This document shows, piece after piece, positions 2,481 through 22,908 of a stretch of 55,343 nt of DNA. Both the position numbers and the translations under genes were made by a program. This DNA comes from Deltaproteobacteria bacterium (GTDB taxonomy: Bacteria > UBA10199 > JACPAL01), in contig JACPAL010000006.1 in assembly GCA_016180855.1 (NCBI GenBank), positions 1 to 55,343 of the forward strand, given 5' to 3'. Under the pieces are notes generated by a model that was given only the letters and a program-made list of their open reading frames with translations, did not search any database and had not been told where the DNA came from. How positions within the stretch are numbered: position 1 is the first letter of the stretch; every line of letters begins with the position of its first letter.

Positions 2481-4172
2481 TTATCGCTTGAATTTCTTGT
2501 ATTTGATCCGATGGACAGCAAGGGCCTCGGCACCTAAACGACGTTTTTTATCCTCTTCGTAATCGGAGAAGTTCCCCTCAAACCAGACGACACGACTCTC
2601 CCCCTCAAACGCGAGGATGTGGGTTGCAATCCGGTCCAAAAACCACCGGTCGTGGCTGATCACCACGGCACAACCGACAAAATTTTCCAATCCGACCTCG
2701 AGGGCCCGCAAGGTGTGGACATCAAGGTCGTTCGTCGGTTCATCCAACAGCAGGACATTCCCCGCCTCCTTGAGTGTCATCGCAAGGTGAACCCGGTTCC
2801 TCTCCCCACCGGACAACGTATTCACCCTCTTCTCCTGATCCGTTCCGGAAAAATTAAATCGGGAGAGATAGGCGCGGGAGTTCACCTCCCTCTTCCCCAA
2901 AAGGATCAGATCCTGCCCCCCTGAGACCGCCTGCCAGACGGTCCGCGTGTCGTCACTCTTAAGCCTCTCCTGATCAACATACCCCAACTTGACGGTCTCA
3001 CCGATCTTGAAGCTCCCGCTGTCAGGCCTTTCGAGCCCCATGATCATCCGAAAGAGCGTCGTCTTTCCGGCACCGTTCGGACCGATCACACCAACGATTC
3101 CCCCCTGGGGCAGTGAAAAACTTAAGTTCTCAAAAAGCAGTCTCTCCCCAAACGCCTTGGAGATATTTTTGCTTTCAATCACAAGCTGGCCGAGTCTTGG
3201 TCCGGGTGGGATGGTGATCTCCTGTGTCTCATCCCGTCTCTCAGCCTCTTCCTGCAGGAGCTTTTCGTAGTTTGAGATGCGGGCCTTACTTTTCGACCGA
3301 CGTGCCGAGGGAGACTGACCGATCCATTCCAGTTCGCGTTGCAAGGTTTTCATCTTCCTCTGATCCGCCTTCTCCTCATGGGCCAGCCGTTCCTCTTTCT
3401 GGCCCAGCCAGGAGGAGTAATTCCCCTTCCAGGGGATCCCATACCCCCGGTCGAGCTCCAGGATCCACCCTGCTACATGATCAAGAAAATACCGGTCATG
3501 TGTAACCGCGATGACCGTTCCCTTGTATTGATGGAGGTGACGCTCGAGCCAATAGACCGACTCGGCATCGAGGTGGTTCGTCGGTTCATCCAGCAAGAGG
3601 ATATCCGGCTCGCGGAGGAGGAGCCGGCAGAGGGCGACGCGCCTCTTCTCCCCTCCCGATAACGACCCGATCTTCTGATCTTCGGGTGGACAACGAAGGG
3701 CATCCATCGCAAGCTCCAGACGATTGTCCAGATTCCAGGCATCGGCCTTGTCGAGTTTCTCCTGAACCGAGGCCTGACGCTCAATCAGCTTATTCATTGC
3801 CTCTTCCGACATCGGATTGGCGAAGCTGTTGTTGATCTCGTCAAACTCACGCAACAGATCGACCACTTCCTGCGTTCCCTCCTGAACCACCTCTTTTACC
3901 GTCTTGTTCGGATCCAACCGGGGTTCCTGCTCCTGCAGGCCAACCGTATATCCTTTAGAAAAATGGAGCTCCCCGTCGTAGTCTTTGTCCAGGCCCGCAA
4001 TGATCTTAAGGAGTGAGCTCTTCCCGGCCCCATTGAGCCCCAACACACCGATCTTCGCCCCGTAGAAAAAAGAGAGGGAGATATCCTTAAGCACCGTCTT
4101 GTTCGGGGGATAAACCCGGTTGACCCGATTCATCGAAAAAATGATTTTTTGTGGTTCGCCGTTCTCCGGCAT
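2481..4172 (-). CDS. ettA: energy-dependent translational throttle protein EttA (ABC-F)
   Basis: A soluble ABC-F ATPase with tandem nucleotide-binding domains and no membrane part; 563 aa against about 555 for the family. Domain 1 has Walker A GLNGAGKSS (about residues 45-53), signature LSGGEKRR (171) and Walker B ILLLDEPTNHLD (191). Domain 2 has GPNGAGKTT, LSGGERNR and VLLLDEPTNDLD. The interdomain linker contains the charged helical segment expected for the tRNA-interacting motif, and the C-terminus ends in a basic KYKKFKR. EttA binds the ribosomal E site and gates the first peptide bond according to the ATP/ADP ratio. The start is the ATG at 4172. The gene appears to be a single transcription unit following the phospholipase D gene at 61 bp. 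Assignment to EttA rather than Uup or YheS rests on length and on overall match. Confidence 0.93.
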   Translation of the reverse strand: MPENGEPQKIIFSMNRVNRVYPPNKTVLKDISLSFFYGAKIGVLGLNGAGKSSLLKIIAGLDKDYDGELHFSKGYTVGLQEQEPRLDPNKTVKEVVQEGTQEVVDLLREFDEINNSFANPMSEEAMNKLIERQASVQEKLDKADAWNLDNRLELAMDALRCPPEDQKIGSLSGGEKRRVALCRLLLREPDILLLDEPTNHLDAESVYWLERHLHQYKGTVIAVTHDRYFLDHVAGWILELDRGYGIPWKGNYSSWLGQKEERLAHEEKADQRKMKTLQRELEWIGQSPSARRSKSKARISNYEKLLQEEAERRDETQEITIPPGPRLGQLVIESKNISKAFGERLLFENLSFSLPQGGIVGVIGPNGAGKTTLFRMIMGLERPDSGSFKIGETVKLGYVDQERLKSDDTRTVWQAVSGGQDLILLGKREVNSRAYLSRFNFSGTDQEKRVNTLSGGERNRVHLAMTLKEAGNVLLLDEPTNDLDVHTLRALEVGLENFVGCAVVISHDRWFLDRIATHILAFEGESRVVWFEGNFSDYEEDKKRRLGAEALAVHRIKYKKFKR

Positions 4173-4199
4173 CGTTTTTAATCCTCTTTATCCGCCTCC

Positions 4200-4240
4200 G
4201 CCAGAAAACCCTGCCGTCTTGCCGCGGGGAGCTTCATACC
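4200..4240 (-). repeat. post-stop dispersed repeat, copy 1
   Basis: This 41-bp segment matches 22998-23038 at 35 of 41 positions. Read on the minus strand it begins at the final codon and TGA stop of the phospholipase D gene and continues as AGCTCCCCGCGG into the 3' untranslated region. The second copy begins in the same way at the stop of the pyruvate kinase gene. Confidence 0.6.
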
Positions 4241-5787
4241 CAGTCCTGAAACCAGAGACTGACAGAAAGCTCCATCTTTTCCCACGGATTTTTTGGCAAT
4301 GAAAATTTATCCGCCTCTCCCTTCCCTATCTTCCTGCTCTTCTGAAGATCCTTGGCAAAGAGACCGGAAAGACCGGAGGCCAGCTCCCGCTCTTCAAATG
4401 TAATGATTGATTCACTGTTGTGGAGCTCGCTTCTCGGATCAAGGTTGTAGGAACCGACAATCGCCGTCCTGTTATCAAAGATCGCATATTTTGCATGCAG
4501 CGTCCCCTCACCCTGCTTGTGCCCCTGCCATTCGTGAATATCAATGCCTGCCGCAATAAGCCCCTTGTAAAAATACCTTCCAACAACGGTCATCTGGGGA
4601 AGGTCATTTGTCTCCTTGCTGTTCGTAAGGATCGTCACCTTCACACCCCGTGCCCGAGCGCGGATAAGCGCCTCCCGGATAACTCGCTTCGGAATAAAAT
4701 AGGCGTTGGCGATCTCGATCCTCTCATGAGCCGATTCGATCAGAGAAAGATAGGCCTGCAGGATAAAACTCTCCTCATACCGTGGACGGTTCTGGACAAA
4801 TCGTGCCGTCGCCCCCATAAATTTCAGACCGTTCAAAACGGACCGGTTCGCCAGTTGTTTCACCTTCGCAGTAATTTTGTCGTCCGTCTTGAAAGCCACG
4901 GGGAGGAGCCCAAATCGTCCAACAATCTGACCTCGCCACTCCTTCCAGTATTTGTCCGTATTGAAGATGTCGGGATGACCCGTCTTGACCCCCTTGAAAT
5001 ACTGATAGTTCCTGTCAAAAGTGGCCACAAGGTCCTTAACAATGGCCCCCTTAACCGCCAGATCCTGATCCCTCCAGCGATCCTTGGGTCGGCTCCCGAC
5101 ACGAAAATACTCATTCGCAATATTCAAGCCCCCGACAATCGCGATGCCGTCCTTCTCTTCGCCGTCAATAATCCACAGCTTTTCATGAAATCGCCGATTC
5201 ACATTCATCGGATCCTTAATTGAAAACTCGTTGATCCACTGGAGCCAGAGTGCCTCGTATCCTTCAACCTCAATACCGTTCTGTTTAAGGTCGTAGAGCA
5301 TCCACTGTGTCTGCCAGTCGATAGCAGTGGAGGCGGCATCGACAATGACCCGGACATCGAGTCCATCCCGCTTTTTTCGCTTGAGAATCTCCGCAATGGC
5401 GAGACCTGACTCATCACCGGTGAAGAGCAATGCCTGGATCCGGATCGATTTTTTTGCAGACTTGAGCGCCTCCATCCTCGCAGAGAAGGAGTCTTCTCCA
5501 TTCGGAAGAAGGGCGATACGTGCCTCACTTTTGTCTCGTACCGGAAAAATGCCCGAACAACGAATGGATGGTATCTGGCTGCACTGAAACTGAAAGGAGC
5601 GTTCAAAAAACGGTGACGTCTGCGTTGAAGCAACCTTCCAAAACTGCTCCAGACCAGTCGGAGTCCCCTGAACCCTTGTCAGAAAATCCTGACTGTTTGC
5701 CGCCGGTGGTTCCTCCCGTTTACACATTGGGGCGTTACCCACAAATCCGTTCTGAGAAGCAGTTCCATTAAACTCCAGTCTATCCAT
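4234..5787 (-). CDS. phospholipase D family protein with two HKD motifs (cardiolipin-synthase-like)
   Basis: Two complete HxKxxxxD motifs are visible: HEKLWIID followed by a GG turn, and HAKYAIFD followed by GSYNLDPRSE. The second is the standard PLD signature with the trailing NxxxRSxxxN-type segment. The architecture fits cardiolipin synthases and bacterial PLD-like phosphatidyltransferases or phosphodiesterases. No transmembrane helices or signal peptide are seen at the N-terminus, unlike classical ClsA. The first about 70 residues are low-conservation and polar. Start: ATG at 5787 is preferred, with AAGGGG 12 nt upstream; an in-frame GTG lies at 5811. The substrate cannot be told from sequence. 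A second, unrelated PLD-domain protein is encoded at 19813-22908. Confidence 0.8.
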   Translation of the reverse strand: MDRLEFNGTASQNGFVGNAPMCKREEPPAANSQDFLTRVQGTPTGLEQFWKVASTQTSPFFERSFQFQCSQIPSIRCSGIFPVRDKSEARIALLPNGEDSFSARMEALKSAKKSIRIQALLFTGDESGLAIAEILKRKKRDGLDVRVIVDAASTAIDWQTQWMLYDLKQNGIEVEGYEALWLQWINEFSIKDPMNVNRRFHEKLWIIDGEEKDGIAIVGGLNIANEYFRVGSRPKDRWRDQDLAVKGAIVKDLVATFDRNYQYFKGVKTGHPDIFNTDKYWKEWRGQIVGRFGLLPVAFKTDDKITAKVKQLANRSVLNGLKFMGATARFVQNRPRYEESFILQAYLSLIESAHERIEIANAYFIPKRVIREALIRARARGVKVTILTNSKETNDLPQMTVVGRYFYKGLIAAGIDIHEWQGHKQGEGTLHAKYAIFDNRTAIVGSYNLDPRSELHNSESIITFEERELASGLSGLFAKDLQKSRKIGKGEADKFSLPKNPWEKMELSVSLWFQDWV

Positions 5788-6968: not shown

Positions 6969-7567
6969 TCTGTTTTAAACACGCGGTGGTTCAAAAATCC
7001 GATCCCCGTCCCGACGATCATCCCGACCACGACATCCAGGAAATAGTGCCGCCCTGCCCCACTCCTGGCAACTGAGGTAACAGCTGCCGCCCCGATCACC
7101 AGCGCTGCTACCGCCTTGGTGACGACCGGACGATCCTCCCCGTAATTATCGAAAAGGTTCATCGAGAGATAAACCGCAATAGAGAAGGCGTAACTCGCAT
7201 GACCCGAGAAGAAACTCATGTTGTCCATGCGATTGGGTCGCTCGCGTGCCACAAGCCGCTTCGTGATGGAGGTCACCCCCTCTGTCAGAAGAAACGCGCT
7301 AAAACCCCCGATCGCCTGATTCTTCGCTTTTTCACGATCTTTGACGAGCCTGATGAAGTAGTATCCGAAACCCCCAAAAACAACCCCCTTGATTCCCCAA
7401 TCGGAAATCGTTCTCCAGGTCTCCTTGGAGAAAACCATCCCCTCCAGGAGACTCGGGCCGTTGGCCGGCCATTTCGGGCTAAGCGGCCGCTTCAGCACAA
7501 AGGAGCCGAACAGAATGGCACTGATTCCAACAACCGGAAGAATCTGTTTTTGATGATCAGCCCTCAT
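6905..7567 (-). CDS. PAP2 family membrane phosphatase
   Basis: A 220-residue integral membrane protein with the three PAP2 signatures: KRLVARERP (C1, K-x6-RP), SGHASYAFS (C2, catalytic His) and ARSGAGRHYFLDV (C3, R-x5-H-x3-D). Such enzymes dephosphorylate lipid phosphates such as undecaprenyl pyrophosphate, phosphatidate or lipid A, at the outer face of the inner membrane. The ATG overlaps the stop of the RND gene in an ATGA, so it is translationally coupled to the efflux operon. A lipid phosphatase as third gene of an efflux operon is unusual and suggests linked envelope function. The C-terminal 21 codons overlap srkA on the other strand. Confidence 0.88.
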   Translation of the reverse strand: MRADHQKQILPVVGISAILFGSFVLKRPLSPKWPANGPSLLEGMVFSKETWRTISDWGIKGVVFGGFGYYFIRLVKDREKAKNQAIGGFSAFLLTEGVTSITKRLVARERPNRMDNMSFFSGHASYAFSIAVYLSMNLFDNYGEDRPVVTKAVAALVIGAAAVTSVARSGAGRHYFLDVVVGMIVGTGIGFLNHRVFKTDQPSSCRREICSLIPSRNSSQ

Positions 7568-12982: not shown

Positions 12983-12988
12983 TATAAT

Positions 12989-13061
12989 GGGTCGGTAGCT
13001 CAGTCGGTAGAGCACTGCCCTTTTAAGGCAGGTGTCCCGGGTTCGAGCCCCGGCCGACCCA
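12989..13061 (+). tRNA. tRNA-Lys(TTT)
   Basis: A full cloverleaf of 73 nt: acceptor arms GGGTCGG and CCGACCC, D-arm with AGCTCAGTCGGTAGAGC, anticodon stem CTGCC/GGCAG around CTTTTAA (anticodon TTT), and T-arm with GGGTTCGAGCCCC. Discriminator base A. The 3' CCA is not encoded. Confidence 0.97.
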
Positions 13062-13075
13062 TATACTGCAGTGGA

Positions 13076-13182
13076 TAGTGTTTAGTGCATAGTGTCTCGT
13101 GTTGGATGTCTAGTTGAAAAGGACAGCCGATGAGTTCGTATAAGGAGTTAAAAGTGTGGCAAGCACTATTCACTAAACACTA
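13076..13182 (+). mobile_element. 107-bp inverted-repeat element, remnant of a four-helix-bundle (23S IVS-type) gene
   Basis: 19-bp terminal inverted repeats with one mismatch (13076-13094 and 13164-13182) enclose the start of a small open frame at 13130-13183. It reads MSSYKELKVWQ and then runs straight into the right inverted repeat and stops. The YKELKVWQ start is characteristic of four-helix-bundle proteins encoded in 23S rRNA intervening sequences. The frame is only 17 codons here, so this is a deletion derivative resembling a MITE, sitting between two tRNA genes. Confidence 0.6.
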
Positions 13183-13197
13183 GTAACTGTTTTCACT

Positions 13198-13270
13198 GTC
13201 CCCATCGTCTAGAGGCCTAGGACATAGGCTTTTCAAGCCTGTAACACGGGTTCGAATCCCGTTGGGGACG
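13198..13270 (+). tRNA. tRNA-Glu(TTC)
   Basis: 73-nt cloverleaf with acceptor arms GTCCCCA and TGGGGAC, anticodon loop TTTTCAA (anticodon TTC), and T-arm with GGGTTCGAATCCC. Discriminator G, no encoded CCA. The terminator that originally followed it is interrupted by an IS element. Pieces of its 3' end recur at 15343, 16538 and 17346. Confidence 0.97.
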
Positions 13271-13283
13271 CAAAAAATTGGCT

Positions 13284-15171
13284 CCCGACTTTGACACTTC
13301 AAAATAAAAAGTTATTTTATACCGATAGGTTAGAAGCGAGCTTCGGGCTTGTGCCACTACATTTCTGATTTTCCGTAAGGCGGAGCAGTCTGGGAGGGGC
13401 CTTGAGTCCGATCGCCGCAAAGAGTTTTTGGGCATTCCCGGCGATGTCGGTCCGAACCCACATCGTTTGTGATTTCACGTTGACCGGTATGGCGCGCACT
13501 TCCCGAAGTTCGCGCATCGCTTCGACGACCGTCAGCGCTCTTGGTTTGACGATGTCCTCCTTGACGGCCGGACTCTCCAACATGAGATTCTTTTCTCTCA
13601 AACACTTTGTCATCAAGGCTTCACAAAGATAAGCGAGAAAGCAGAGTGTCAAATGGCCGATGATCCTCTGATCCGTCCAATGAAAGACGGGTCGCGCTTT
13701 GAGCGTTCCCTTGATCTCGCCGAAGGCGTCCTCGATGATCCACAGCGTTTTGTAGTTGGACACGATCTCTTCGGCCTTCATGTCGGTGACGTTCGTCAGG
13801 ACGCCGAAGTAACCGTCACGCAGAGCATCCTCGGCGATAGCCTTCTCATTCAGCCGGAAGCCCTTGCCGTCATTCAAGCCCACGACATAACGCTGATACG
13901 TCGTGTTGGTCACAAAGACCTTGGCCGTGATCTTTTTCTTCTCAAGCTTCTTTTGGATCTTGGCCAAGACGTCCTCCCGTGCCTTCCGGTCCCGTTCCGC
14001 GCGGGCTTTAGACCAGGTGATGATACACCGGTCTCCCTCATGGGTCGTTTCATAAACAGCCAGATTATCATTGATCTTCGTGTAGCGGGCAAAGTCATAG
14101 AACTCCGCATGCCGGTCACGGAATACGCCGAGCTTCATCCCGACAATGAACTCACCCTGATTTTCCTTGTCCTCACCGCGCAGAGACTTCAGGTTCTTTT
14201 TTGAGAAGAGGCCCCGATCTCCTACGAAGATAAATCGCCGTACATTAAACTTCTCGCGCATCTTTTTCACAATGTCGGCGACCGTCTTCCCCTCGAACGT
14301 ATTCCCCGGATACACCTCAAAGCCCAAGGGAGTTCCGTCGGGGGCCACCAAAAGTCCCAGGACGACTTGAGTGCAGTCGCTCCTCCGCTCCTTGCTGTAC
14401 CCAAATCGTCTGAGCGTCCCGATGTCCACGCGGGTGCTTTCAAAACGAAGCGTCGTCAGATCATAGAGAACAACATCCACCTGGGCGTTCAAAAGATTGC
14501 GGTCATGCCAGTACAGATTCTTTTCGATCTCTTCCTTGTGCTCCGCCAGGACATCCAGAGCACGATAGAGTTGATGGAGGCCCATCTCCTGCTCGATCAT
14601 TTCCGGATAAAACCTCTTCTGCCAGTGCTCGAAGACCTTCAACTTCGACCCCGGTTTCACAAAGCGCGAGGCGATCATCGTGAAAACCAATTTGTGCAGA
14701 TCAAAACCGAGCTTGGGATGTTTGCTGGAAACATCGGCGAGAACCGAACGAATGCCGCTCTTTTCAAACAAGCGGTCCAGAACGAGCAAGGGTCCCAAAA
14801 TGAAAGTCTCATCGATGGAGATTGTTTTGGCCAGCTCCAGGACGGTGAAAATCTCCTTGTGCTTGGCGATGGCCGCGATCACATCGTCCATGCGATCCTC
14901 TCCGGCCTTGCCTAACGAGAGAAGCGTGCGATGACGGACCACTCCATTGTCACGATAAGACTCAACCAGATGATAGTACGACTGTCCTGATGAATTGATG
15001 GTCGTCTTGATGAACATAGACCGAAGGTCTACCACAAGAAAACCAGAAAATCACAGGGAAATAAGCGCCCGCTTGAAGATTGTTCACTACACTTTTCGCA
15101 AAACCAAAACTGACCCTGAGATTTTTCAGGCACTTGACCTCGGTCGGTCATCGGGAAGTGTCAAAGTCGGG
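13284..15171 (-). mobile_element. IS1634-family insertion sequence, 1888 bp, with 7-bp target duplication
   Basis: Perfect 17-bp terminal inverted repeats, CCCGACTTTGACACTTC at 13284-13300 and its complement at 15155-15171, enclose one transposase gene. ATTGGCT at 13277-13283 and again at 15172-15178 is the target-site duplication. The target is the ascending arm of the tRNA-Glu terminator. Intact ends and an intact gene suggest a recent and possibly active copy. Confidence 0.93.
13317..15017 (-). CDS. IS1634-family transposase
   Basis: 566 residues from the ATG at 15017 (a GTG at 15035 would add six). The N-terminus MFIKTTINSSGQSYYHL and the sequence throughout match IS1634/IS4-group DDE transposases. 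Candidate catalytic residues are Asp in VLYDLTTLRFES, Asp in VGDRGLFSKKN and Glu in IIEDAFGEIKG with its trailing conserved block. The frame is complete and uninterrupted. It is transcribed toward tRNA-Glu, so tRNA read-through would be antisense to it. Confidence 0.93.
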   Translation of the reverse strand: MFIKTTINSSGQSYYHLVESYRDNGVVRHRTLLSLGKAGEDRMDDVIAAIAKHKEIFTVLELAKTISIDETFILGPLLVLDRLFEKSGIRSVLADVSSKHPKLGFDLHKLVFTMIASRFVKPGSKLKVFEHWQKRFYPEMIEQEMGLHQLYRALDVLAEHKEEIEKNLYWHDRNLLNAQVDVVLYDLTTLRFESTRVDIGTLRRFGYSKERRSDCTQVVLGLLVAPDGTPLGFEVYPGNTFEGKTVADIVKKMREKFNVRRFIFVGDRGLFSKKNLKSLRGEDKENQGEFIVGMKLGVFRDRHAEFYDFARYTKINDNLAVYETTHEGDRCIITWSKARAERDRKAREDVLAKIQKKLEKKKITAKVFVTNTTYQRYVVGLNDGKGFRLNEKAIAEDALRDGYFGVLTNVTDMKAEEIVSNYKTLWIIEDAFGEIKGTLKARPVFHWTDQRIIGHLTLCFLAYLCEALMTKCLREKNLMLESPAVKEDIVKPRALTVVEAMRELREVRAIPVNVKSQTMWVRTDIAGNAQKLFAAIGLKAPPRLLRLTENQKCSGTSPKLASNLSV

Positions 15172-15870: not shown

Positions 15871-16203
15871 ATGCTTGAGATTCGGTATTTCCGAACCGCA
15901 CGAGGGGACGAACCGGCACGTGATTACATTCAAGAGTTGCCCGCGAAAGAGCGGGCTAAAATCGAGGGGTGTCTCTCCGTACTGGGAATGACAGGTAAAC
16001 TTGAAATGCCTCATGGGAAAAAACTGGTGGGACACAAGAATCTTTTCGAGGTTCGGTCAGGACGCCATCGGATTTTGTATGCGTTCCATGAAGGAGAGGT
16101 TGTCCTGCTAAGCGCCTTTATGAAGAAATCGCAAGAGACTCCGAAGGGTGAGATTGAACTCGCCAAAAGGAGATTAGAGAATTACGTAAATATGGGAGGG
16201 TAA
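15871..16203 (+). CDS. RelE/HigB-type toxin (phage Gp49-like family)
   Basis: 110 aa of the RelE/ParE fold. The opening MLEIRYFRTARGDEPARDYI, the central GMTGKLEMPHGKKL and the core LFEVRSGRHRILYAF match the Gp49-like HigB group, which cleaves mRNA on the ribosome. The basic residues of the RxGRHR segment are the likely catalytic or RNA-binding ones. The toxin gene comes first and the antitoxin starts 4 bp after its stop, the usual higBA order. Weak ribosome site, consistent with low toxin expression. Confidence 0.85.
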   Translation: MLEIRYFRTARGDEPARDYIQELPAKERAKIEGCLSVLGMTGKLEMPHGKKLVGHKNLFEVRSGRHRILYAFHEGEVVLLSAFMKKSQETPKGEIELAKRRLENYVNMGG

Positions 16204-16207
16204 TACG

Positions 16208-16501
16208 ATGAGCAAAACCAATCCACACCGAGGATCGAGTTTTAACGACCACCTCAGGGAAGAATTAAAAGACCCTGAATTTCGGCGGGAGTTTGAAAAG
16301 GCCCGCGCCGAAATTGTGATCGGCCAGATGGTCCGGAGGATCGTCAAACAGCAACGATTAACGATCCGCCAGCTTGCCAAGCGAATGAAAAGTAGTGTCT
16401 CTCAGGTACAAAGGCTGATGAGTAACGCCAATGTGAGTATTGATGCCCTGGCGAAATTTGCTGCTGCGACGGGTAAGAAGCTTTCTATTCAACTCAAATA
16501 A
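16208..16501 (+). CDS. XRE-family HigA-like antitoxin
   Basis: 97 aa with a helix-turn-helix at about residues 48-75 (LTIRQLAKRMKSSVSQVQRL) and a polar N-terminal extension that would wrap the toxin. It is the partner of the RelE/HigB-type toxin gene directly upstream and should repress the shared promoter. The end, KKLSIQLK, is typical of this antitoxin group. Confidence 0.85.
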   Translation: MSKTNPHRGSSFNDHLREELKDPEFRREFEKARAEIVIGQMVRRIVKQQRLTIRQLAKRMKSSVSQVQRLMSNANVSIDALAKFAAATGKKLSIQLK

Positions 16502-16537
16502 AAGGCCTCATGCCGCCATCGCCATTTCCCGACAGGC

Positions 16538-16563
16538 GGTTCGAAAACCCTCTAGTTGGGGAC
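16538..16563 (+). repeat. degenerate tRNA-Glu 3'-end-like sequence
   Basis: GGTTCGAA, a short spacer and TTGGGGAC reproduce the T-loop and the acceptor end of tRNA-Glu. Seventeen bases (16539-16555) are identical to 17346-17362. The rest of 16502-16778 holds no gene that I can support; short minus-strand frames there look like decayed sequence. Confidence 0.5.
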
Positions 16564-16778
16564 ACAGTGATAGGTCGTTGATATTTCTTAAGTATTTGAT
16601 TTTTCGAGGCATGGCCATGACCATATAGTGCCAGATTTTCCGCCTTAGACCGGTCAAACGATAGTCGTTGGCACCCAGATGGCACCGAAAAAACGACCCT
16701 GTTTCGAAGATCCTCTTCACCCCTCACACTGAGTAGCCCTTGCCATTCTTAATAGTATAGTGTACTGTATTGCTATAA

Positions 16779-17132
16779 ATGGCAAAGTTTAAATTCACCC
16801 TCTGGTTGGCTTATTGGTATCTTCAAGCCGAGAACTTTGAATTTCAGTGGGATCAGGGCAACTCCACCAAGAGTGTTGTCAAGCATGGGGTAACGACCGA
16901 GGAGGTTGAGTCTGTCTTAACCCTCAAAATGGCGGTTCCCATTGGCAGGCAGGTTTCACCGGCCGTTGATGAGGAAAGACTGTGCGTTGTTGGTCCCTCT
17001 CAGGAGGGTCGAATGCTTTCCATCGTTTTTACCTTACGAGATGGACGGGTACGCCCGATTAGTTCGCGAATCGCCAATCGTAACGAAAGGAGACGTTATG
17101 AAGAAATACGCAAAACAATCCAAAAGCTATAA
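16779..17132 (+). CDS. BrnT-family toxin
   Basis: 117 aa. Residues from about 18 on match BrnT: FEFQWDQGNSTKSVVKHGV, then VESVL, then a central LCVVGPSQEGRMLSIVFTLR and the terminal RVRPISSRIANRNERRRYEE. The fold is RelE-like and the toxin is a ribonuclease. The hydrophobic N-terminal start MAKFKFTLWLAYWYLQ is seen in a subgroup of the family. The start has no clear Shine-Dalgarno sequence. The 3' end overlaps the antitoxin gene by 35 bp. Confidence 0.85.
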   Translation: MAKFKFTLWLAYWYLQAENFEFQWDQGNSTKSVVKHGVTTEEVESVLTLKMAVPIGRQVSPAVDEERLCVVGPSQEGRMLSIVFTLRDGRVRPISSRIANRNERRRYEEIRKTIQKL

Positions 17133-17331
17133 CCGCATTGATTTTGACCCCAAGGAAATCATTGCAGGCATGAGCCGCTTGAAAGGCAGCCAGCGTAAGC
17201 CAACCAGTGTTGCGCTTGAAGAAGAATTGCTCGATGAACTTAAATCACTCGCTGACAAGAGAGGTGTCCCTTATCAGGTCCTTATGCGCCTTTTAATAGC
17301 GGATGGGGTCAAGCGATTGAAAGCGGCGTAA
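17098..17331 (+). CDS. BrnA/CopG-like antitoxin
   Basis: 77 aa from the ATG at 17098, which has AAAGGAG just upstream. The polar N-half carries the toxin-binding segment and the C-half (PTSVALEEELLDELKSLADK onward) is a ribbon-helix-helix DNA-binding domain. Overlap with the toxin gene in another frame gives translational coupling. Neutralises BrnT and autoregulates the operon by family precedent. Confidence 0.8.
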   Translation: MKKYAKQSKSYNRIDFDPKEIIAGMSRLKGSQRKPTSVALEEELLDELKSLADKRGVPYQVLMRLLIADGVKRLKAA

Positions 17332-17623: not shown

Positions 17624-18493
17624 ATGGCAGAGACAAAACCGGCGAATGAATGCACATGCACAAACCCATTTGTGAAGATCGAAGGAGGCCCTTTTCAACT
17701 GGGCTCGCCCGGAGCTACTCCTTTATCAGATGAACAACATCTAAGAAGTGTCATCATTTCCGATTTTGAAATTCAGCAACACGAGGTTTCCATTGGGGAA
17801 GTTAGAGATTTGAATGAAACAGCGGGAAAAGTGCTTGGAGCCGTTTTGTCGGGTTGTAAAGGGACCACTCCTGACACATTTTTTTTGGAGGTCAAGATGG
17901 GTGAGTCCGAAAGTGCTTTGCAGAAGCGTGCCCAACAAATTGCTGGCCAGTTACAATGTAACTCTGATACCCCCCTCAAGCGCCAACCCAAGATAGAGAT
18001 TCCGACTGTCGATTTTTCGGCTAACAGAATCAATCGTGGAGGAGACACATACCCGGTGCAGGGCCTGAAGTGGCAAGAGGCAATGGATTATTGTGTAGCA
18101 ATCGGCGCCACTTTGGCAACCGCGGCACAATTGGAGTACGTCTCTGACACGGGTGGAGCGACTCCCAATGCCGTCACTGATAAAAATAGCAACAACAGTC
18201 CCGCTCCTGTCTGTGGTCCAGAGGCAGAAAGGCGCCGTAACAGATATGGCGTTGGTGATATCGAAGGGAATCTTTGGGAATTGACTTCGGATCAATATGA
18301 TCCTGAGTTTTATAGCAGAGTGCGTGATTGTGCAAAAGATCCGAGTAATCCGGTGACTAAACCGGAGGATCAGAAGTCAGAAGTTCGCGGCGGTTCCTTC
18401 GACGACGATGCGAGGGACGCGCGGGCGGCCAATCGCGACTACGACTATCCGTCTTACCGCTACGGCGTCGATGGGTTTCGTTGCGCGCGTTAG
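17624..18493 (+). CDS. FGE-sulfatase-fold protein with DGR-like variable C-terminus
   Basis: 289 aa; ATG at 17624 is chosen because GGAGG stands 6 nt before it. The protein begins, without signal peptide, with a FGE/SUMF1 domain (FVKIEGGPFQLGSP, then the EIQQHEVSIGEV strand; later YPVQGLKWQEAMDYCVAIGA, and IEGNLWELTSDQYD). It ends RGGSF...GFRCAR. Residues 255-289 have the pattern of variable proteins of diversity-generating retroelements: Asp, Tyr, Gly or Val at 260-262, 265, 272-275, 278, 280-283, each encoded by a codon one or two first- or second-position changes from AAC, AAT or ATC, separated by invariant R, A, N and P codons. This last 105 bp is also much richer in G+C than the preceding gene. 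Probable role: ligand-binding protein with a diversified surface rather than a sulfatase activator. Confidence 0.8.
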   Translation: MAETKPANECTCTNPFVKIEGGPFQLGSPGATPLSDEQHLRSVIISDFEIQQHEVSIGEVRDLNETAGKVLGAVLSGCKGTTPDTFFLEVKMGESESALQKRAQQIAGQLQCNSDTPLKRQPKIEIPTVDFSANRINRGGDTYPVQGLKWQEAMDYCVAIGATLATAAQLEYVSDTGGATPNAVTDKNSNNSPAPVCGPEAERRRNRYGVGDIEGNLWELTSDQYDPEFYSRVRDCAKDPSNPVTKPEDQKSEVRGGSFDDDARDARAANRDYDYPSYRYGVDGFRCAR

Positions 18494-18517
18494 TGGCCCC
18501 AGGACTCCAACCGGTAC

Positions 18518-19750
18518 TTATTTTTCTGTGAAGATCGTCTCGATCTGGGTGGCTACAGTCGAACGGCTGAATTGAAGGCCCATGTAGGAGGGCGGTTCAC
18601 GGAGTGCGGCAAGAAGTCTGGATCGGTCATCCTCGTTAAGCCGTCCCCTCTCCGACAGGGCAAAGGAAACGACGCACCAATTAAATGAGATCGGATCTTT
18701 GATGCCTCGGGCCTGCCCCAGAAATTGATCCGTTGACAGGGTTCCAGAATGGACTTTGGCATGATCCACGATGAATTGATCATTTAAGGATTTTGAATCC
18801 CACGGGTAACTTAAGGCGTCGACCTCGCGGAGGTTTGTCGTGAGTAACTTAACCGTCTCCCAATCATACCGGTCTGATTTCTTCAGGTTCTCTGCATAAT
18901 CCAGGAGTAGCAGGTTGTAGTGCGCCGTCCACCGCACCAGTGCCGCATGCCACAGAAATTTGGCCGGAGTCATGGTATCCATGCGTGGCTCCAGGTAAGA
19001 GCGGATCAGAAAAATATTCATCCTGTCGGTATCCCCGTCATATCCGGGACTATCATACTCGAGCAACGCCCGGTTCAGTGCCACCACCATCGGCCAATCA
19101 AACCTTCCAGCCTGTTGCATCGCCTCCGCGTACCGTCGGATCAAGCGATTTCCACTTGACAGATACGGATACTGCCGTGCGTAAAAGGAAACTTCGCTGG
19201 ACAAGAGGGTATCAAGTCTCGGTTCCAGGTAGGCGTCCATCACCCGCTCATAGGTCTCCTCACGGTAGAGCCGGGTTTGATCGAGAACAAGGACAACCTT
19301 TGGACGATTCAGGTGGTGATCAATATCTTCCCCGGGAAAAGGCGAAATTGTCTTCTTATCAATCGCCCATTCCGCGAGCCCTTCGAGCAGAGGGACCATT
19401 TCTGTTTGCCAGTCGAACAAGGGGGTGTTGTGGAGCTGGGCATATTTCTCGATCGCCGCGTTTTTCTTCATCGCGGCGTTTCTCGGGTCCGGATCTAGGT
19501 CTGCCCGGGAGAGGAACCTCAGGAATTGGGCCGTATTAAGCTCGCTAAAGCAGTAACTGGTCGCATAGTAGGGGGGTTGGCCCGGCTCATGGTTTAGTTC
19601 GGCCTTGGCGAAGTTATCGAGACAGGTCCCAAGCTTGAGCCTGTCCTCCTCAGATTCCTCCGGTTCCCTGGTACGAGTCTGGCACGCGAGTGCAAGCACC
19701 GCTGCCGCCCCACCCCAACGAAACACCGACGGAACAATAGAGGTAACCAT
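18518..19750 (-). CDS. hypothetical lipoprotein, 410 aa
   Basis: Not recognised. The ATG at 19750 has AAGGAG directly upstream and gives a clean lipoprotein signal (hydrophobic stretch ending LALAC, Cys at about residue 23); an earlier frame start at 19780 would spoil it. The mature part is helical and rich in Trp/Tyr/Leu, with a repeated pattern: YLEPRLDTL and YLEPRMDTM with similar flanks about 70 residues apart, suggesting two or more tandem helical repeats. It ends convergently 24 bp from the FGE-fold gene and is divergent from the HAD-PLD fusion gene (62-bp gap). Confidence 0.65.
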   Translation of the reverse strand: MVTSIVPSVFRWGGAAAVLALACQTRTREPEESEEDRLKLGTCLDNFAKAELNHEPGQPPYYATSYCFSELNTAQFLRFLSRADLDPDPRNAAMKKNAAIEKYAQLHNTPLFDWQTEMVPLLEGLAEWAIDKKTISPFPGEDIDHHLNRPKVVLVLDQTRLYREETYERVMDAYLEPRLDTLLSSEVSFYARQYPYLSSGNRLIRRYAEAMQQAGRFDWPMVVALNRALLEYDSPGYDGDTDRMNIFLIRSYLEPRMDTMTPAKFLWHAALVRWTAHYNLLLLDYAENLKKSDRYDWETVKLLTTNLREVDALSYPWDSKSLNDQFIVDHAKVHSGTLSTDQFLGQARGIKDPISFNWCVVSFALSERGRLNEDDRSRLLAALREPPSYMGLQFSRSTVATQIETIFTEK

Positions 19751-19812
19751 GATCTCTCCTTCTGTCACCCCTTCTCGCACTCCCCTCCAGCGAAGTTGTT
19801 ACAAAAATCCCT

Positions 19813-22800
19813 TTGAAAGCCGGTTCGGACGTTGTGCTGGTTCCCATGACAACCATTTCAGATCTTGTTCGATTAGGGGGCATGGGACGATCGATTTCAT
19901 TGCCTGTGGCCTCCTCTGATAACGCACGGCATTGGCCCGACAAAACCGTCCCCACTGTTCCCCGTGAAAGGAATCAAGAAGTTCCCGGCCAATCCGAATT
20001 TCGGTTGGTGGGACGTTCCGACGGAAAAGTAACAAAACGCAACCAGGCACAGAAATTCAAACCGCTGCGGTTCACACCGTTTCATCAGGTTGCCACCTGG
20101 AATCACCCCGTCCCTCTGAGGGTCAAGGTGAGTCTCGATGAAACCTATCATCACCAATTTTCAACGACAAAACTGGATGGCCTTGAGGTCGATTTTTTTA
20201 TCCGAAAAAGGGACGGCTCATCGGTAAAGATCGGGACAGCGACGACCGATGCCGAAGGGTATGCCACACTCTATTATCAATCAGATTCAGGCGACTCCGT
20301 CATCAACATCACACATCGACTTCGCTCTAACAGACATGGTCATGCCACCATGACCGGAAAACTGTACCGTCTTCGTCCGGAACAGGCCGTTGTGGCGATC
20401 GACCTCGATGATCTCTGGCGACGGGGAGGGTTCAAGGAGGTGAAGGGGATTGTCCAGTCAATACGTAAACAGGGCTATCAACCGATCCTTCTTGTGAATA
20501 CGATCAACACCGCCTCAACCTATGAAAAGGTCGTGAAGGATCTTGAATCGCTGAATCTGCCGGTCTTGTATAATGATACTCGGTATAGCGGTTTTCATCG
20601 GGACCACCAGGGATTTGGAGAGGCACAGCTCGAGAAACTGAAACGGCTCAAATTTGAGGCGGGAGTCCCGATCGTTGCCGTTTACAGTCGGCCTGTCAGA
20701 AACGAAGAGGCCTATCTTCATCATGGTATCAAACGACTCTCTTGGGAGGCGAATCTGGATCTGGAGGGGAGGTCTCTGGTTGAATCTTTTGAAAAATTCC
20801 GTCGGCAGGTGGACCATCCCGATTTTGATCTAGAAACGTTTCTCTGGGACGGTTTGACAGACTCCCGTTGGGAGACGGGAAATAACTTTCAATTCTATTT
20901 TAAGGGAGAAGAGGCCTTTGAAGCCTTACTAGCGATGATCGATCATGCCAAGACGTTCCTCTCGATCCGGAACGCCTCAAATATCCAGGATGATGCGCAT
21001 GGCAGGGAGCTCCGAAGGCATTTGCTCGAGAAGGCCCGTCCGGACCCCCAAAAACAGGGACCTCAGATTCGAATGATGATGGATGGGTTGCTCGGTGATG
21101 TCGCTTTTGCCTCAAACCCCAGCTTTACCTGGGCGCCCCAACAGTTTGTTGACTCATTAAAAGGAATGGGAGTCGACTATGTAACGATTCCGGTCGATCA
21201 TCATATCGACCATGATGAGCCGTTCTGGGGGATCGTCACACGACACCATACGAAATTTACGATTGCCGATAACGGAGGACGGGCTGTTGCCTATGGAGGA
21301 GGGCGTCATTTTTCCAGTGGATCGTTTGACGAGCGGATCCCTCCCTCCGAAGGTGTCAACCTTGTTGAGTGGCTAGGGGGAATCGAGAAAGGGGGACTTC
21401 ATGACCTGAGTTTTACGGTAGAGGGGCCGATCGTTCGAACAATCCACGAAAGATTTCTCGATGATTTTGAATCAAGCGGTGGAAGGCCGGTCAGTGCTGA
21501 AGAGCGGAAACGTCTTCTTTCGCCCAATCTGTATCGTTCCTCCTCCGGATCGGTCGAATCGACACCGGTCCGGTTTATTCCTCATCATAGTTACCAGGAT
21601 CAGAACTGCCTGAATGTTTTGTTTCGTCTACTGGAGGATCCGAAATCAAAAGAGGTAACCTTCGTAAACTCGTTTATCCCGACCGAAGAGATGATCGAGG
21701 GGATGAAACTCGCTGCCCGCAATGGGAAGGAGGTTCGATGGGTTGTCGGCAGTATCGCGAATATCTACGACTGGATCCGGGATCCACGACTGGAAGGGTT
21801 GTTACGGGCCGGCGTGAAGATCTACATCCTGCCGGAGCGCTTTCACACGAAGCTCTATGGGAACTCCCGTTACTACGCCTTCGGCAATCATAATCTGGAC
21901 AGCCCTTCCCTCCGTGATGAGGAAGATCTGACCGTTGTGCCGAAAGATTCGCCGGCTGGAAGGGATCTGGATCGGTATGTCGAGAGGTTGTTGGCGCAGG
22001 CGACGCCGCTCCATGTCGGATGGCAACAGGGAGAGGATCTCTCCCAGATTTTGGAGAGGGCCTACCAGCTGGAAAAACCGTCAGAGGAAGAGATCTCCAA
22101 GGAACCGAAGCCTCATACCTTTTGGGAGCTGGCGAATCATGTCGCCCTTGAGGGGCTTGAGATCACACAAACAGCGGTATCGGGTGTTGCTCGAGAGGTC
22201 GCTCATGGTCGTTTCATACCCCATCTGAGAGGGACTATTACCGAACTCGACGGTCAGCTGGGGGGAGGTGTTGATGCCGGTTTTGGAAGTATCGGGGAGA
22301 GGTATGTTCCGAAACCGAAGGAGACCTGGCGTACCTTTTTCCTCAGCCAACACGCCCTCAATTTTGGGTTTTATTTTTATGATCAAGACTTCATTGGGAC
22401 GATGCGGTATGCCGGTCGGGCCGCCCCGATTCAGCTTCACCTGGGAGATTTCACACCGCAGATCAGTTGGGATCAATATGTGGGGCTGACATTTGTCGAA
22501 TCCTTGGGAAACAAGTTCGGGATACGTCTCCAGAGCGGCAACTACGTCAATCTCCAGGGGGAGACACTGGGGGCCCGGATCGGTATGTTGAACGGATATG
22601 AATTTTTGCGTCCCCTCCCCTCATTTGACCCGATCACGATCGAACCGGTTGTGATGAATCCGGGCGCTCTGACCCTTACCCTTGATACCTCGGTGACTGT
22701 CGAAGGGGAGCGAACCCGTTATTCTGTCGGACCTTTTACCACCTTTGAGCCTTATTCCACAAATTTGGGCTATGGTCTCTTTGGCCGATTACAGTGGTAC

Positions 22801-22908
22801 TCGCGGTACCCCCGCGATGAGATCCTCACACTCACAGGCTCTATCCAAAAAACGGAAGGGGATCTGCGATCCCTCCTTTCGCTGGAAATTCCGTTTACCG
22901 GTCCATGA
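19813..22908 (+). CDS. multidomain protein: Ig-like, HAD/App1-like, phospholipase D-like, C-terminal beta-rich domain
   Basis: Up to 1031 aa. Residues about 90-185 are a beta-sandwich-like segment. At 197-201 the sequence DLDDL opens an alpha/beta domain (to about 320) resembling HAD/LNS2-type phosphatases. About 370-730 is phospholipase D-like: the first motif is complete (H479-x-K481-x4-D486 followed by GGGRHF), but in the second (H678-x-K680) the Asp position is Ser, followed by GNHNLDSPS. From about 770 the chain is rich in alternating hydrophobic/aromatic residues with Gly turns, as in a beta-barrel or beta-sandwich. No signal peptide is seen. The start is uncertain: TTG 19813, ATG 19846 and ATG 19882 are all in frame and none has a convincing ribosome site. 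Probably acts on phospholipid or nucleic-acid phosphodiesters. Confidence 0.65.
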   Translation: MKAGSDVVLVPMTTISDLVRLGGMGRSISLPVASSDNARHWPDKTVPTVPRERNQEVPGQSEFRLVGRSDGKVTKRNQAQKFKPLRFTPFHQVATWNHPVPLRVKVSLDETYHHQFSTTKLDGLEVDFFIRKRDGSSVKIGTATTDAEGYATLYYQSDSGDSVINITHRLRSNRHGHATMTGKLYRLRPEQAVVAIDLDDLWRRGGFKEVKGIVQSIRKQGYQPILLVNTINTASTYEKVVKDLESLNLPVLYNDTRYSGFHRDHQGFGEAQLEKLKRLKFEAGVPIVAVYSRPVRNEEAYLHHGIKRLSWEANLDLEGRSLVESFEKFRRQVDHPDFDLETFLWDGLTDSRWETGNNFQFYFKGEEAFEALLAMIDHAKTFLSIRNASNIQDDAHGRELRRHLLEKARPDPQKQGPQIRMMMDGLLGDVAFASNPSFTWAPQQFVDSLKGMGVDYVTIPVDHHIDHDEPFWGIVTRHHTKFTIADNGGRAVAYGGGRHFSSGSFDERIPPSEGVNLVEWLGGIEKGGLHDLSFTVEGPIVRTIHERFLDDFESSGGRPVSAEERKRLLSPNLYRSSSGSVESTPVRFIPHHSYQDQNCLNVLFRLLEDPKSKEVTFVNSFIPTEEMIEGMKLAARNGKEVRWVVGSIANIYDWIRDPRLEGLLRAGVKIYILPERFHTKLYGNSRYYAFGNHNLDSPSLRDEEDLTVVPKDSPAGRDLDRYVERLLAQATPLHVGWQQGEDLSQILERAYQLEKPSEEEISKEPKPHTFWELANHVALEGLEITQTAVSGVAREVAHGRFIPHLRGTITELDGQLGGGVDAGFGSIGERYVPKPKETWRTFFLSQHALNFGFYFYDQDFIGTMRYAGRAAPIQLHLGDFTPQISWDQYVGLTFVESLGNKFGIRLQSGNYVNLQGETLGARIGMLNGYEFLRPLPSFDPITIEPVVMNPGALTLTLDTSVTVEGERTRYSVGPFTTFEPYSTNLGYGLFGRLQWYSRYPRDEILTLTGSIQKTEGDLRSLLSLEIPFTGP

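Follow-up and report, generated by a model that had tools for sequence, protein, structure and literature searches.

This locus poses two questions: is the 3′ end of one of its genes, which encodes a protein of the formylglycine-generating-enzyme (FGE) fold, the variable region (VR) of a diversity-generating retroelement (DGR), and if so, where are the template repeat (TR) and the reverse transcriptase (RT) that diversified it? The window, by which we mean the whole 55,343-nucleotide stretch of deltaproteobacterial DNA that was analysed, contains neither an RT nor a template repeat, as the initial annotation had stated; the genome does carry a cassette on another contig, C4.

A DGR target at the 3′ end of an FGE-domain gene

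The target gene and its surroundings comprise the following features.

12988..13271, + strand: tRNA-Lys and tRNA-Glu, at the edge of the variable stretch (Rfam)
13317..15035, − strand: IS transposase (DDE_Tnp_1; PF01609, E=1.3e-10)
15871..17331, + strand: two toxin-antitoxin pairs directly upstream of the target gene, one Gp49-like with HTH, the other BrnT with a CopG/RHH antitoxin (PF05973, PF01381, PF04365, PF12441)
17624..18493, + strand: DGR target gene, 289 aa, with an FGE-sulfatase (formylglycine-generating-enzyme / C-type-lectin-like) domain (PF03781)
18386..18493, + strand: VR including the stop codon, encoding RGGSFDDDARDARAANRDYDYPSYRYGVDGFRCAR and the stop (A-site differences from related templates, shared FGE layout)
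18498..18507, + strand: putative IMH CCCAGGACTC, directly 3′ of the stop (match to the class VR form)
18508..18518, no strand: approximate scar, where the window enters the 3′ end of an unrelated minus-strand gene (sequence comparison)

Residues 16–289 of the encoded protein match the FGE-sulfatase domain (Pfam, E=4.6e-25), bearing out the fold proposed in the initial annotation. The VR lies at the 3′ end of this FGE-domain gene, as in DGR targets, and reads, codon by codon, CGC GGC GGT TCC TTC GAC GAC GAT GCG AGG GAC GCG CGG GCG GCC AAT CGC GAC TAC GAC TAT CCG TCT TAC CGC TAC GGC GTC GAT GGG TTT CGT TGC GCG CGT TAG. It was also correctly described as compositionally distinct, with a G+C content of 65.7% against 48.3% in the remaining gene, where the G+C content of any 108-base stretch peaks at 58.3%. 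FGE targets of other DGR loci have the same VR layout, and 47 ORFs match the window protein.

Near the C terminus of catalytic formylglycine-generating enzymes, a redox-active pair of cysteines lies between GGS and GFR. The window protein has no cysteine between these two motifs and is therefore unlikely to be a catalytic formylglycine-generating enzyme; a role as a binding protein of the FGE fold, as in other DGR targets, is more likely. An AlphaFold model of the target had a mean pLDDT of 57, with values below 40 across most of the VR, and was left out of the analysis. No close homologue of the protein was found in IMG/VR or among phages, and plasmids returned only distant FGE proteins (20–25% identity).

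A search of 60 related genomes identified a full-length homologue in a genome of the same class (G016; 45% identical over residues 10–289) and, 1.6 kb 3′ of it, a second match limited to the last 36 residues of the window protein. The G016 locus encodes, on a single strand and in this order, the target gene (ending in the VR), avd, the RT and the TR. Its TR and VR differ at 19 of 105 positions, and the template base is A in 19 of 19. In length and register the window VR matches this template, which has A at 14 of the 16 codon-position-1 and -2 differences between them (Fisher 1.5e-5). Three related TRs share an A at 26 position-1 and -2 sites, of which 13 carry a non-A base in the window, whereas the window differs at only 1 of the 31 sites where these TRs have an invariant non-A base, a concentration measured here against relatives' templates rather than the cognate template of the window VR. 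The ten third-position differences from the G016 template we take to reflect the ordinary divergence that a separate template lineage would accumulate. The adenine-directed signature that had been proposed for these codons is thus upheld, and the 3′ end of the gene is a real DGR hypermutation target, with a VR shaped by adenine-directed mutagenesis. The G016 cassette (L038 1–10001) lies on the opposite strand, within a prophage-like structural module (terminase, portal, head protein).

The same pattern holds across the class. In seven class cassettes, TR/VR differences were essentially restricted to A, plus one fixed G/C difference in the IMH, and five TR/VR pairs (G016, G018, G026, G041a and G041b) showed no non-A change within the VR except the fixed IMH base; changes at the ends of the printed TR/VR alignments mark the limits of homology. 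The sequence CCCAGGACT follows the VR in G016, G020a, G041a, G041b, G018, G026 and G044, and the paired TRs carry CCCAGCACT, which differs from it by that single fixed G/C. The IMH of the window has the VR form, identical to that of the class VRs, so that it is the IMH and not the IMH* that is present. Downstream of the TRs in the class (L003, L038–L040, L061–L064), we observed a conserved stretch, CCCAGCACTCCCT...GGAGT...CTTCAAGCC.GAGTCTTGG...TACGGAA.CCAAGAG, which resembles a structured element within the DGR RNA. In the samples examined, the DGR clade of the window VR was restricted to one bacterial class.

The cognate template and reverse transcriptase

Searches of the genome assembly (96% complete, 30 contigs) returned no cognate TR for the window VR, either by pattern, assuming the non-A bases of the window and allowing at most 3 mismatches, or by an Asn-rich peptide search; the only sequences returned were the window itself and the TR on C4. 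With 96% of the genome in 30 contigs, a cognate TR could sit in a gap. As the assembly holds none, we filed the window feature as an orphan VR and not as a complete DGR. Pfam and motif searches found no second RT in the genome, the one on C4 being the only one.

G000:C4:40389-41894 (L003 7390-8895): DGR cassette of avd, split RT and TR, without a target (Pfam, frame reading)

In this cassette, avd matches bAvd (PF22296, 1.6e-18) and the RT, which matches RVT_1, is frameshifted and split across two frames. The TR is one codon longer than the window VR and has many non-A mismatches to it, including in the 3′ part, and is therefore not its source. Upstream of avd, a short VR-end remnant (CTCTCCAGGACTC, L003 ~7294–7306, between tRNA-Lys and avd) is all that is left, so the cassette seems to have lost its own target, and no distant VR for its TR was found elsewhere in the genome. 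The genome is left with one target without a cassette and one cassette without a target, mutually non-cognate. The initial annotation had anticipated either a template and enzyme acting at a distance or a fossil. An RT and Avd do exist elsewhere in the genome, on C4 and beside another TR, but the cognate template does not appear in the assembly; the fossil or orphan option is the one that gained support, and action at a distance through C4 was not supported.

The site 3′ of the VR also differs from that of the relatives. What separates VR and avd in related loci is a pyrimidine-rich tract and, usually, a hairpin. In the window, the ORF that takes this place (18518–19780, −) had no Pfam match. 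An inverted repeat, AGATCGTCTCGATCT, about 25 bases after the IMH was rejected as a DGR cruciform, as it lies within the coding end of the next gene. Rfam reported nothing in the window beyond the two tRNAs. Gene order in G001 and G004 is conserved with the window only as far as a TolC-like gene, so an empty site cannot be read from them. The IS transposase is a possible agent of rearrangement. Further along, the window contains a large ORF with a PLD-like domain (19813–22908), which has a partial paralogue on contig C8.

Three other accounts of the window VR deserve consideration. That the 3′ end is an ordinary C terminus of an FGE domain, resembling a DGR VR by composition only, draws on RGGS...GFRC being a general C-terminal motif of FGE proteins; the A-site statistics, the G016 TR of identical length and the IMH match disfavour it so strongly that it is scarcely credible. 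It is also very improbable that the C4 DGR mutagenises the window gene. The two share the RT clade and the IMH core, and C4, having lost its adjacent target, would need a remote one, but the extra codon and non-A mismatches of its TR contradict this directly, its RT is out of frame and its TR has no VR elsewhere in the genome. Continued activity in trans, with a cognate TR, perhaps accompanied by an RT of its own, in the unassembled ~4% and an RT acting remotely, has a better claim, and we still consider it quite unlikely. The window ORF and IMH are intact, the genome is a 30-contig draft, and remote targets have been described for cyanobacterial DGRs (PMC7517822). Against it, neither a cognate TR nor a second RT was found in the assembly, the only RT of the genome is frame-split, and all complete class cassettes seen keep VR, RT and TR within ~2 kb. 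In the cyanobacterial study, the criterion that tied a remote variable protein to a DGR in its own genome was TR identity >50% (PMC7517822); the window resembles these in having a target far from an RT and a transposase nearby, but differs in that the only TR of its genome is non-cognate. Compared with FGE-sulfatase / C-type-lectin DGRs of cyanobacteria and other cellular genomes, it shares the 3′ VR, the RGGSW...GFR layout, an Asn-rich template, A-specific changes and the IMH, and differs in lacking an RT, Avd and TR nearby and a cognate TR in the assembly.

We therefore consider it very probable that the window carries a genuine orphan DGR VR with its IMH, on a target of the FGE/C-type-lectin fold from which the cassette is absent, in a clade with a seemingly phase-variable RT. 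Judged from sequence, this orphan VR is most likely a fossil and is probably now frozen. It would last have been rewritten by retrohoming of a cDNA with errors at adenines, made from an Asn-rich template encoding roughly GGSFNNNARNARAANRNNNNPSNRNNNNGFRCAR, and the avd-RT-TR cassette expected after it, as in the class relatives, would have been lost from the site.

Tandem repeats in the RT genes of the class

The frame split of the C4 RT has counterparts throughout the class. In 9 of 11 class RT loci, the open frame of the C-terminal RT half spans only 156–199 aa. Tetra- or octanucleotide tandem repeats ending 0–7 bases from RT motif 4 (GIPIGNLTSQ) were found in 8 of the 11 (L062, L063, L040, L061, L043, L060, L038 and L064). 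The state of this site is as follows.

G018: (CAGC)10.5; out of frame
G026: (CAGC)9.5; out of frame
G033: (CAGC)n, cut by a contig end
G041b: (CAAT)12; out of frame
G041a: (TCAC)8; out of frame
G020b: (CATC)8.5; out of frame
G027: (CAGA)4; in frame there, N terminus disrupted
G016: (CATCACTC)4.6; out of frame
G044: without a repeat, RT intact
G020a: repeat region deleted

Three of the six off-frame RTs are displaced by +1 and three by +2 (1,1,1,2,2,2 mod 3), and one repeat-bearing RT is in frame; offsets in both directions argue against a programmed frameshift of fixed direction. A repeat unit that is not a multiple of three, a location within the coding region and off-frame states in some alleles are traits of phase-variable genes that the class RTs share.

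Among the loci sampled, these repeats were specific to the site and to the class. All seven tetranucleotide tracts of at least 4 units in 143 kb of class loci were at RT motif 4, whereas a 1.52 Mb control (the window and 159 other DGR loci) contained one such tract, outside the RT. Among DGR RTs elsewhere, 152 motif matches in public genomes and viral contigs lacked the repeat, as did the RTs with a readable motif in ~340 further genomes. A scan of IMG/VR for four unit types beside the RT motif gave two matches, in each case an RT of another type that is in frame and has a short QPA stretch.

The class RTs group together (100/99), with the C4 RT among them. The repeat-free G044 is nested inside this group, and an ancestral repeat with loss in G044 is therefore the probable history. 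At the repeat site of the C4 RT, only CATCCATCC is left, and its frame break may stem from contraction of the tract or from a separate base deletion. The C4 RT is a member of the same clade that retains a contracted repeat remnant, is out of frame and serves a different template. Across the class, each RT half keeps an open, conserved frame, and sequence comparison indicates purifying selection on both: pN/pS was mostly 0.2–0.4, with synonymous sites near saturation, including in the half behind the frameshift.

Other lesions were also observed. In the two G020 DGRs (L039 ~5249–5370; L043 ~5270–5680), different internal deletions fuse the start of avd to RT sequence, and the TR/VR pair of L039 is pristine despite its deletion. 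In G027 (L060, reverse-strand 3572–4812), the N terminus of the RT is broken beside a ~90-base repeat that has inverted ends, occurs in two near-identical copies and may be a small insertion element.

Phase variation, decay and the fate of hypermutated targets

To our knowledge, the regulation of DGR mutagenesis is largely open. We consider it likely that the class RT is a contingency gene, in which copy-number slippage of the repeats before motif 4 would move the RT between in-frame and out-of-frame states and so toggle the mutator: a rare ON cell would diversify the target, the OFF state would fix the variant, and the orphan VR of the window would be one outcome. Behind this reading stands a single assembly per species, in most cases a draft from metagenomes, and within-species polymorphism in copy number was not observed. 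Contingency loci of Haemophilus and Neisseria carry tetranucleotide repeats, with units such as CAAT, in coding regions, and off-frame states are common. The class RTs resemble them in both respects, and differ in that the controlled gene is a mutagenic reverse transcriptase.

The competing view, that the split RTs are decaying pseudogenes, assembly errors or products of programmed frameshifting, is the less probable one, although it retains some weight. Sporadic cases of an inactivated DGR RT beside intact TR/VR were described by DiGReF, which took them as recent losses (PMC3521204), further lesions are present in G020a, G020b and G027, and repeats can be miscounted in short-read assemblies. 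A programmed frameshift of fixed direction could not restore six loci of which three are displaced by +1 and three by +2. Also against this view are units that turn over while their position stays fixed within 7 bases of motif 4, the low pN/pS of both RT halves and the pristine TR/VR pairs of the class. The class is like the inactivated DGRs of DiGReF in its frameshifted RTs and A-only TR/VR changes; it differs in that the disruption recurs clade-wide at one site and consists of tetra- or octanucleotide repeats (PMC3521204).

We found no account of phase-variable DGR RTs: the literature searched on DGR phase variation, simple repeats or frameshifts does not describe repeats within a DGR RT, with most subscription papers and bioRxiv outside the coverage. 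Surveys may have missed split RTs, as Roux et al. 2021 accepted RT genes only at 250–550 aa (PMC8144416), and off-phase halves measure ~150–250 aa.

If true, switching by repeats inside the RT would account for a useful variant being first gained and then kept, and the dominance of OFF alleles in the assemblies fits this reading. The window VR, for its part, suggests that a hypermutated target can persist as an intact gene after its cassette has gone.
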